38,717 bases of DNA. Source: Minisyncoccota bacterium. GTDB lineage: Bacteria; Patescibacteriota; Minisyncoccia; Phycocordibacterales; CAJBRS01. A program made the translations under genes and the position numbers. Under the pieces are notes generated by a model. The model ran no database searches, was not told the DNA's origin, and worked only from the letters and a program-made list of their open reading frames with translations. Positions 9,011-18,218 of the stretch are shown in pieces (positions within the stretch are counted from its first letter, which is position 1; each line of letters opens with the position of its first letter). The stretch lies in the NCBI GenBank assembly GCA_017881075.1, contig JADGRH010000005.1, positions 1-38,717 on the forward strand. The letters are read 5' to 3'.

Positions 9011-9043
9011 TTTGCTCCGTCCAGTAGAGGATGTTAGAACCTA
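9011..9043 (+). repeat. GCTCCGY-family intergenic repeat, copy A
   Basis: TTTGCTCCGTCCAGTAGAGGATGTTAGAACCTA. Confidence 0.75.
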
Positions 9044-9079
9044 TCAATAAACCAACCATACCCATTCAGGCAACTGATT

Positions 9080-9241
9080 TTATTTCAGGAATCTAAAGAA
9101 GAAAGTAGCAAACACCAGGACGATGCCGATGTTCACGATGAGCCGTTCCCAGAATCGATCCCTGAAGAACAGTAGATCGACGCCGACGACAATGGCTATC
9201 AAGGCCACAACACAAAATGCGATAAGTATAGGTCTTGTCAT
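9080..9241 (-). CDS. 53-aa small two-TM membrane protein (missed by the ORF track)
   Basis: MTRPILIAFCVVALIAIVVGVDLLFFRDRFWERLIVNIGIVLVFATFFFRFLK*. Confidence 0.55.
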   Translation of the reverse strand: MTRPILIAFCVVALIAIVVGVDLLFFRDRFWERLIVNIGIVLVFATFFFRFLK

Positions 9242-9284
9242 TACTTGAAAACACTACTACATTTTTATGGTAAAAGCCAAAACA

Positions 9285-9317
9285 AAGTGCCCCGTCTAGT
9301 AGAGGATATCAGAACCC
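9285..9317 (+). repeat. GCTCCGY-family intergenic repeat, copy B
   Basis: AAGTGCCCCGTCTAGTAGAGGATATCAGAACCC. Confidence 0.75.
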
Positions 9318-9338
9318 ACCTTATGATGATTTGAAAAT

Positions 9339-9632
9339 TTAATTATCTTGGGAATCCAAATGCAATTCAACGTTGGCCTTTACTGCTTCTTCTTTTGCAA
9401 CGTTTGGATCGAATATTTCGTTAAGAGGAAATCTTTTAATCGTATCCTCTCTTTGATGATACCAGCCAATTGCTTCATTACCCCTAATTTCTTTTAGATT
9501 ATAAACAATTTTATCGTTAGGATGAGCAATGACGTCTCCAATTTTGAAGACATGTTGTTTAGCTCTCTCTTGAGCTCTTCTTATCCCAACTTGAAGAGGT
9601 AATTCGGTTTCGTCTATAGGGCCTTTTTCCAT
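9339..9632 (-). CDS. Hypothetical protein, resembles YccV/HspQ-like small beta domain
   Basis: MEKGPIDETELPLQVGIRRAQERAKQHVFKIGDVIAHPNDKIVYNLKEIRGNEAIGWYH...; internal ATG preferred because the upstream extension covers repeat copy C. Confidence 0.55.
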   Translation of the reverse strand: MEKGPIDETELPLQVGIRRAQERAKQHVFKIGDVIAHPNDKIVYNLKEIRGNEAIGWYHQREDTIKRFPLNEIFDPNVAKEEAVKANVELHLDSQDN

Positions 9633-9650
9633 ATAAATAATTATATCAAA

Positions 9651-9735
9651 TTTGCTCCCTTGGTTGGATACGTTCAGAACTCTAGATTGGGTGAAGATAA
9701 AGAGGGAAGTGGAAAGTCTGAGATTTGTATAAACA
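9651..9735 (+). repeat. Long-form repeat copy C
   Basis: TTTGCTCCCTTGGTTGGATACGTTCAGAACTCTAGATTGGGTGAAGATAAAGAGGGAAGTGGAAAG..., matches 16621-16705. Confidence 0.8.
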
Positions 9736-16062: not shown

Positions 16063-16110
16063 AAGTGCTCCGCATGTTGAACGATGTTAGAACCTACATG
16101 TTAGAATCTA
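16063..16110 (+). repeat. GCTCCGY-family repeat, copy E, with partial tandem duplicate
   Basis: AAGTGCTCCGCATGTTGAACGATGTTAGAACCTAC then ATGTTAGAATCTA. Confidence 0.8.
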
Positions 16111-16116
16111 AATGAT

Positions 16117-16326
16117 ATGAAATTAACAAATGACAGCTATACAATTTTCATTGGCACTAAAAACTTCACCGAACGCTATTATCGTGATAAAAAGGGGTGG
16201 GTAAAGATGTCAGCCCGTGGCAAGACATTCCGAATGACTGCTGAACAAGTCCTGAATCATCTTTTACCAGCATTGTCTGGTATTAAACCAAACCTCGCAG
16301 TGAAAGTGGATTACAATAAAAAGTAA
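16117..16326 (+). CDS. Hypothetical 69-aa protein
   Basis: MKLTNDSYTIFIGTKNFTERYYRDKKGWVKMSARGKTFRMTAEQVLNHLLPALSGIKPNLAVKVDYNKK; bracketed by repeats E and F. Confidence 0.6.
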   Translation: MKLTNDSYTIFIGTKNFTERYYRDKKGWVKMSARGKTFRMTAEQVLNHLLPALSGIKPNLAVKVDYNKK

Positions 16327-16342: not shown

Positions 16343-16375
16343 ATTTGCTCCGCATATTGAACGATGTTAGAACCC
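16343..16375 (+). repeat. GCTCCGY-family repeat, copy F
   Basis: ATTTGCTCCGCATATTGAACGATGTTAGAACCC. Confidence 0.8.
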
Positions 16376-16389
16376 GGGTGGTATAAAAA

Positions 16390-16590
16390 GAAAGACCGTC
16401 AAGTGCTGGGCATTACACTTAACGGTCTCGATCTAGGCGCACACCAAATGGTATTCTGGCTTGCGTCATCCCAGTGTCAGGAAGAACCGAACTGGGCACT
16501 TGTTCACTCTCGCATTACCTGATCAAAGTCGGGTCTTCAATGCGCCCTCCATAGGGTTTCAGTCTGCCCACCTATAAACAAGCCTCTAAT
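16390..16590 (-). ncRNA. Putative structured ncRNA ending in a strong intrinsic terminator; family not recognised
   Basis: No good ORF; minus-strand stems GGCGCA/TGCGCC, CGCATT/AATGCG, CCCAGT/ACTGGG, ATACC-ATTT-GGTGT; U-tailed terminator at the 3' end. Confidence 0.55.
16393..16428 (-). terminator. Intrinsic terminator of the putative ncRNA
   Basis: Minus strand AGACCGTTAAGTG-taatgcccag-CACTTGACGGTCT then TTCTTTTTAT; the single non-WC pair is U.G on the minus-strand RNA but C/A on the plus strand. Confidence 0.85.
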
Positions 16591-16620
16591 TGTACTTTAG
16601 CTTATTATTAAGAAAAGTAA

Positions 16621-16705
16621 AGAGCTCCCCTGGTTGGCTACGTTCAGAACTCTGGATTGGTTGAAAATAAAGAGGGAAGTGGAGAGTTTGGGGTTTATAT
16701 AAAAG
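16621..16705 (+). repeat. Long-form repeat copy G
   Basis: AGAGCTCCCCTGGTTGGCTACGTTCAGAACTCTGGATTGGTTGAAAATAAAGAGGGAAGTGGAGAG..., homologous to 9651-9735. Confidence 0.8.
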
Positions 16706-16707
16706 AA

Positions 16708-16755
16708 AAAGCCCCCAACGCGGAAGTCCTATTGAAGGCTCTTCCTGGGGGCTTT
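16708..16755 (-). terminator. Intrinsic terminator of the 16762-17208 gene
   Basis: AAAGCCCCCAACGCGGAAG ... CTTCCTGGGGGCTTT, T-rich run on minus strand. Confidence 0.8.
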
Positions 16756-16761
16756 GTTTAG

Positions 16762-17208
16762 CTATTGACTGGCGCTTTCGGGCTCCGAATTCAGGAGCTG
16801 GTCCAGAGTAAGTCCACGCACACTTGCGCAGTACTTGGCCTGATCGAGAAACAGTGGCTCCTCACGACGGTCTTGTGCCGAAGTTCCTATCCACCGCATG
16901 GTGAAGGTACCCGCGATAGTCTGACGCTCGTTGGGAACGCGATTGCGCGAGACCTTGATCTCTGTCCGCGCTTCGTTCAGCAGTCCTATGTGCCAGCCGT
17001 CGTTTAAAGAAAAGTGAATGCGATCATCGTTGCTCTCGCAAATCCAGAATTCTTTTTCTTCTTCACCCAGCTTGACCAGACCACGACCCGTGTTCAGGTC
17101 TATCCGCCGAAAGCGGGGACGATGTCCAGTTTGGACTTCCAGCGCCAAACGCAGATCTTCAAGGGTGTCGCAGACATTTGCAGTTATTACCGGTTTCTTT
17201 TTAAACAT
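16762..17208 (-). CDS. Hypothetical 148-aa protein
   Basis: AGGAG SD, own terminator, MFKKKPVITANVCDTLEDLRLALEVQTGHRPRF...; higher GC than neighbours. Confidence 0.65.
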   Translation of the reverse strand: MFKKKPVITANVCDTLEDLRLALEVQTGHRPRFRRIDLNTGRGLVKLGEEEKEFWICESNDDRIHFSLNDGWHIGLLNEARTEIKVSRNRVPNERQTIAGTFTMRWIGTSAQDRREEPLFLDQAKYCASVRGLTLDQLLNSEPESASQ

Positions 17209-17312
17209 TATTTTGCTCCTAGTTCAAGGTTCAAGTTGAAGAGATTACTCTCTTGAAACCACAGTTCAGTAGTTCTGAATACATTATATCATATATACAG
17301 AATATGTCAAAT

Positions 17313-17340
17313 TTTGCTCCGTGGGTAGGGATAGAACGGA
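17313..17340 (+). repeat. GCTCCGY-family repeat, shortened copy H
   Basis: TTTGCTCCGTGGGTAGGGATAGAACGGA. Confidence 0.5.
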
Positions 17341-17399
17341 AGTATTAAGTTGGTTAAACTTATTGATTTTTGGCCTGAAAAAAGGGATAGTTATGACCT

Positions 17400-18218
17400 A
17401 TGTCACTATCAATCGGAATTGTGGGGTTGCCGAATGTGGGGAAGTCCACGTTATTTAATGCCCTGACTAAAAAAAGTGTGCCGGCGGAGAATTATCCGTT
17501 TTGTACCATTGATCCGTCGGTGGGCATTGTGGCTGTGCCTGACGAACGATTGGATAAACTGGCGGCTATGTCGAAATCCAAGAAAGTTATTCCGGCCGTA
17601 GTGGAATTTGTGGATATTGCAGGATTGGTGAAAGGGGCGAGTGAAGGCGCCGGGCTCGGTAATAAATTTCTCTCACACATCCGTGAAGTCGACGCTGTTA
17701 TTGAGATGGTGCGGATTTTTGAAGATAAGAATGTTATCCACGTTCACGATAAAATTGATCCACTTTTTGATATTGAAATCATTAATATGGAACTGGAGGT
17801 CGCCGGCATTAAAAAGCCAACCCTTTATGTTTTAAATATTTCCGAAGCCAGCGAGACCAATAGGCGAGAAGTCATTCCAAAATTACCAGGTCCTTATATT
17901 GAAGTTGATCCGATCTTTGGCACCGGTTTGGGTAATCTAATTAAAGCCAGTTACGATTTACTTAATCTCATCACTTTTTTTACTACCGGAGAAAAGGAGA
18001 GTCGCGCCTGGACTACAGGGCGCGGCTCCACTGCGCCTGAAGCAGGGAAGTCCATTCATACCGACTTCCAGCAAAAATTCATCCGTGCCGAAATAATTCA
18101 CTACGACAAACTAATAGAAGCCGGCTCATACGCTACGGCGCGCGCTAAGGGGTGGGTGAGGACAGAGGGGAAGGAATACATTGTGCAGGATGGAGATGTG
18201 ATTGAGTTCTTGATATAG
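17400..18218 (+). CDS. ychF: YchF/Obg-like ATPase, short form lacking the helical domain
   Basis: [39 protein letters not shown]-terminal TGS-type [24 protein letters not shown]...[11 protein letters not shown]; 272 aa. Confidence 0.93.

Follow-up and report, generated by a model that had tools for sequence, protein, structure and literature searches.

The attC sites of integrons consist of inverted outer boxes (RYYYAAC ... GTTRRRY) and can fold as a single strand, and the Xer sites of pdif modules stand in alternating inverted orientation. Integron gene cassettes, as well as the attC arrays without an integrase known as CALINs, include cassettes that have no ORF (PMC11014356, PMC8876359, PMC9668308). 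The pdif (Xer) modules of Acinetobacter are small gene modules lying between sites of ~28 bp (e.g. PMC6449649, PMC12907356), and an integron-encoded sRNA of Xanthomonas, sRNA-Xcc1, is cited in PMC8876359. In open-access papers, we found nothing relevant on integrons or tRNA-Asn cassettes in Patescibacteria.

We analyzed a stretch of 38,717 nt (hereafter the window) from a Minisyncoccota bacterium (CAJBRS01; assembly GCA_017881075.1, contig JADGRH010000005.1, positions 1-38,717 of the forward strand). The original prediction had placed there a novel structured ncRNA, on the minus strand of 16390-16590 and inside a repeat-bounded cassette. The cassette is borne out: the flanking repeats are 31-bp sites that occur in tandem and in one orientation around single small genes. 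Compared as 29-mers, the two bounding repeats are 97% identical and lie 280 bp apart, where none would be expected by chance. The left site, TTTGCTCCGCATATTGAACGATGTTAGAACC (16344..16374, plus strand), was identified by a site matrix that gives 0 matches in the reversed control, and the same matrix identified the right site, AGAGCTCCCCTGGTTGGCTACGTTCAGAACT (16621..16651, plus strand), which is a more divergent member of the family. From the site at 16344 to that at 16621, the unit measures 277 bp.

The matrix, built from the first examples, gives six sites in the window (9011, 9286, 9651, 16064, 16344 and 16621). Contigs C1 and C6 carry another six each; every one of these sites points the same way, and the reversed sequence has none. 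Those at 9011, 9286 and 9651 form a second group in the window (9011..9681, plus strand). The array that contains the 277-bp unit begins with the site at 16064..16094 (plus strand), followed by a cassette with a 69-aa ORF (16117-16326), and a neighbouring cassette carries a 148-aa gene on the minus strand (16762..17208). Between the sites of this genome lie mostly single small genes, coding for OmdA/YdeI, a GNAT acetyltransferase, a methyltransferase, a serine hydrolase, a GrpB-kinase and unknowns.

The array on contig C1 stops at an intact tRNA-Asn, the 3' end of which faces the array. A copy of that 3' end, identical at 22 of 23 bases, forms the right end of the window array (17315..17337, plus strand), where no tRNA is present. 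The sites have GCTCC(G) in common with the acceptor end of tRNA-Asn, and TTCGAACC or a variant of it in common with the T loop, with ~4 bp more between the two. That they are plain tRNA 3' ends is ruled out, as they resemble such ends but are ~4 bp longer. The arrays on C1 and C6 lie near contig ends, so that the assembly probably breaks there, possibly at the cost of some cassettes or a recombinase.

Three cassette arrays are listed for this one 716-kb genome (window 9011-9681; L048 1116-3208; L049 14256-18890). Behind sites of the GTTCAGAACT type, a longer segment is shared (CTGGATTGG...AAAGAGGGAAGTGGAGAGTTTGG..TTATATAAA), often ahead of a terminator, as seen at 16652-16700 and 9682-9730 of the window and at 16704-16750 and 17413-17460 of L049. 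A genome of the same genus (G001) possesses the tRNA-Asn and a single weak site-like sequence ~850 bp away from it, which indicates that the array is absent or decayed there; the segment upstream of ychF also differs in that genome. In this genus YchF itself (window 17400-18218) has 272 aa, compared with open frames of 366-390 aa in the other families of the order, and the match shows a gap at about residues 150-175.

Within the order, the site pattern was found in 9 of 297 genomes, and the backwards pattern gave no match; a lone site match in one genome (G026) seems to fall within a gene and probably reflects chance. A scan of 85,462 species genomes returned 50 stretches with 103 sites, and 0 in the reversed control; the matrix was trained partly on scan matches, which makes the site count dependent on the pattern, and this dependence does not extend to the reversed control or to the orientation result. 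Most of the 50 stretches are named as Patescibacteria lineages (Uhrbacteria, Magasanikbacteria, Nomurabacteria, Moraniibacteriota, Paceibacterota, Adlerbacteria, Andersenbacteria, Harrisonbacteria, Peregrinibacteria and others), the remainder being bacteria with no lineage name plus four records titled otherwise. The exact site was not found in IMG/VR. Two same-strand sites occur on a 130-kb contig titled Deltaproteobacteria (L109, MGRG01000006.1), reflecting either mis-binning or transfer outside Patescibacteria.

The sites share one orientation in 27 of the 28 multi-site loci. With introns allowed, 19 tRNAs are predicted at these loci, 15 of which are tRNA-Asn, and in all 15 cases the sites lie on the 3' side. 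The tRNA-Asn genes of three loci (L084, L105, L127) are predicted only when introns are allowed and possibly bear them, and a group I intron beyond the last site of another (L124:7058-7305) may likewise belong to an intron-bearing tRNA-Asn gene. Complete cassettes (n=63) have a median length of 761 bp, and 60 of them contain an ORF of 60 aa or more; short cassettes without a gene (129, 179 and 275 bp) also occur. The longest ORF opposes the site direction in 43 of 61 cassettes, and homology among cassettes is limited to two weak pairs. Because the sites form three arrays in the genome under study, in one orientation and with 0 in the control, and these 103 sites lie in 50 other stretches, the 277-bp unit represents a single cassette in an array of this Patescibacteria genome, one that is integron-like and associated with tRNA-Asn.

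Like integrons and CALINs, the arrays consist of tandem one-gene units between equally oriented sites, with very diverse cargo, occasional gene-less units and often no integrase nearby. However, the Patescibacteria site spans only 27-31 bp and has a core (GTTAGAAC/GTTCGAAC) that departs from GTTRRRY, the arrays are located at the tRNA-Asn 3' end and not next to intI/attI, and many cassette genes oppose the site direction and have their own terminators. In a simple test, distinct from an attC covariance model, we searched the 200 bp upstream of 18 sites and found no consistent inverted attC partner, on which ground a canonical attC is rejected. The array behaves like that of an integron, yet we do not classify it as one.

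The small gene modules, the site length of ~28 bp, the lack of an own recombinase and possible movement by host Xer proteins all recall pdif modules. Unlike these, the sites do not alternate in inverted orientation but point one way, are chromosomal, and resemble a tRNA 3' end. An attachment site that copies a tRNA 3' end is also a feature of tRNA-targeted integrative elements and genomic islands, from which the arrays differ by their mostly single-gene units in series and by having no integrase gene of their own.

What we observe is a site family, its orientation, its association with tRNA-Asn, the one-gene units and the terminators at their left ends. As to movement, we infer that cassettes may be gained and lost when the 27-31-bp sites, imitating the 3' end of tRNA-Asn, undergo site-specific recombination with one another, and that the recombinase would act from elsewhere instead of being encoded at the arrays. 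A search of 2715 open frames at the arrays, in loci that are short, recovered its positive control but no tyrosine recombinase flanking the arrays; neither an empty-site pair nor an excised circle was found. In this genome, which is 97% complete, the single detected tyrosine recombinase (C5:134551) passes the XerA model, is XerA/XerD-like, and reaches 131 bits against an integron integrase model with a cut-off of 265; no integron integrase (intI) with attI was found.

The cassette is laid out like the minus-oriented ones, with a terminator just inside the left site and at most a weak promoter next to the right one, but no protein gene can be recognised in it. The terminator (16392..16429, minus strand) is real, as originally predicted: a GC-rich stem of 15 pairs (16429-16392) with an 8-nt loop is followed by the T-run tail TCTTTTTATA, and the element folded alone gives a z of -4.4, with 0 of 200 shuffles equally stable. 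The minus-strand direction given for it is also right, because the plus strand has no T-run behind the stem. A similar stem occupies the same position in a minus-gene cassette of another genome (L014), where the site is followed by TATAAAAAAGAAAGACCG...GCGGTCTTTTT and then by the minus-strand gene, closely resembling TATAAAAAGAAAGACCG of the candidate cassette. More generally, a minus-strand terminator is found no more than 85 nt after 24 of 123 sites vs 2 of 123 shuffled ones, in a count whose stricter threshold the right site at 16621 does not reach. Since such terminators are common just inside sites, this one reads as common cassette anatomy and does not alone mark an RNA gene. In one locus (L113), the terminators that follow the site are nearly identical in several adjacent cassettes (CCCGACGGAGCCCCGGCTCCTGTCGGG), as if the end of the cassette were shared as a module.

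In the neighbouring 148-aa cassette, the terminator (16726-16712) lies toward the left site, and the right boundary is abutted by a perfect TTGACA/TATAAT promoter (17310-17283). The candidate RNA unit has a similar layout, but its promoter-like site (TTTACT-16-TAAAGT; 16594..16621, minus strand), adjoining the right site, matches at only 8 of 12 positions, and 35% of shuffles do as well. It is plausible that a minus-strand transcript of ~200 nt runs from about 16587 to 16385 and stops at the terminator. Its putative body (16430..16592, minus strand; ~200 nt including the terminator) is more GC-rich than its flanks, as had been noted, with 0.50 against 0.37 in the left flank, 0.40 at 16593-16660 and 0.47 at 16652-17400, the whole window being at 0.41.

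The body fold is ordinary. Without the terminator, 16430-16592 has a z of -1.02 (41 of 200 shuffles equally stable) and 16428-16575 a z of -0.58 (57 of 200), so the z of -3.6 of the whole unit stems mostly from the terminator, and outside the latter the fold is not stabler than that of shuffles. All four stems that had been named are present in the minus strand of 16390-16590. Perfect 6-bp stems number six vs a shuffle mean of 2.3, yet 7.7% of shuffles reach six, and the stems are not clearly beyond chance.

The statement that the stretch does not match tmRNA, RNase P, SRP or 6S held in an Rfam check, which gave no match at the gathering score and nothing convincing at E up to 5; tRNA and tmRNA prediction in the window found none. 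When we searched 60 and 397 genomes of the order at the DNA level, no match was longer than 41 bp, and the better of these short, chance-like matches fell within AT-rich sequence upstream of the RNA; a single-sequence covariance model run against 56 sources and 60 genomes recovered no relative. Nor could we find any relative in the related array contigs, or in plasmids and phages, including one viral pattern search. With an ordinary body fold and no relative in any collection searched, a novel structured ncRNA is not established, and the absence of relatives leaves neither a conserved structure nor a switch supportable.

Because of this ordinary fold and lack of relatives, the cassette is most likely a gene-less, captured or decayed unit, making at most a ~200-nt minus-strand RNA. 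To the joint reading, i.e. a gene-less array cassette that yields at most a short minus-strand RNA and would be moved by a recombinase from elsewhere, we assign a probability of about one half. Two features count against a gene-less or decayed unit: the terminator is both strong and intact, which a decayed unit would not require, and the codon usage of a plus-strand ORF is intermediate between coding and non-coding.

A possible but clearly weaker alternative is a functional cassette-borne sRNA, namely a minus-strand RNA of ~200 nt that would act by base pairing in trans, like the Xanthomonas integron RNA. It would resemble sRNA-Xcc1 in being encoded by a cassette that has no protein gene; unlike sRNA-Xcc1, it is putative, and the window has no Rfam match. 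ORF-less integron cassettes that encode regulatory RNAs are known (PMC8876359), and the self-contained layout, the strong terminator and the overall z speak for such a gene, whereas the ordinary body fold, the weak promoter and the absence of relatives speak against it. Complementarity to possible guide or antisense targets (the sites, tRNA-Asn and the gene starts of the window) did not rise above that of shuffles.

The description of the stretch as lacking an ORF was wrong as stated, since a 52-codon ORF (16364..16522, plus strand) crosses it, with its ATG in the left site. That the cassette carries a small plus-strand protein gene, whose product would be these 52 aa or a shorter form from a later start, is nevertheless unlikely. 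The ORF covers half of the cassette, and its codon score (z 2.2 vs shuffles) overlaps those of true genes, but 16-33% of shuffled sequences have an ORF as long, its start codon lies within the recombination site, and no ribosome-binding site is evident. Moreover, the product has no match in Pfam and, searched as a protein in 397 genomes, finds only itself. A disguised protein gene was rejected as well, since the six frames with stops masked match no Pfam family.

It is more doubtful still that the cassette acts as a promoter unit, driving or silencing neighbouring cassettes with no product of its own. The precedent comes from Vibrio, where most of 29 tested gene-less cassettes have promoter activity and antisense promoters of such cassettes can silence neighbours (PMC11014356). 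However, we could not find a strong outward-facing promoter match on either strand, and the minus-strand terminator would block transcription exiting to the left. A structured switch RNA with P1 and the CGCAUU stem as alternative states is very unlikely, for although GGCGCA/UGCGCC and CGCAUU/AAUGCG do share CGCA and are mutually exclusive as described, alternative 6-bp stems are expected by chance, the body has a z of only -1.0 and no relatives, and no minus-strand gene lies downstream within the cassette to be controlled.

The cassette array is the more novel part of this locus, and the candidate RNA would become important only once a transcript and a function had been demonstrated. To our knowledge, gene acquisition by the ultra-small, streamlined Patescibacteria is poorly understood. 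These bacteria probably share an undescribed integron-like capture system, with one-gene cassette arrays at the 3' end of tRNA-Asn, imitating sites of 27-31 bp, a recombinase that is possibly the lone Xer, and a cargo that includes gene-less and possibly RNA-only units. If so, another cassette system would stand beside integrons, and a fixed landing place at tRNA-Asn together with a recognisable site would make gene capture in Patescibacteria traceable and testable.
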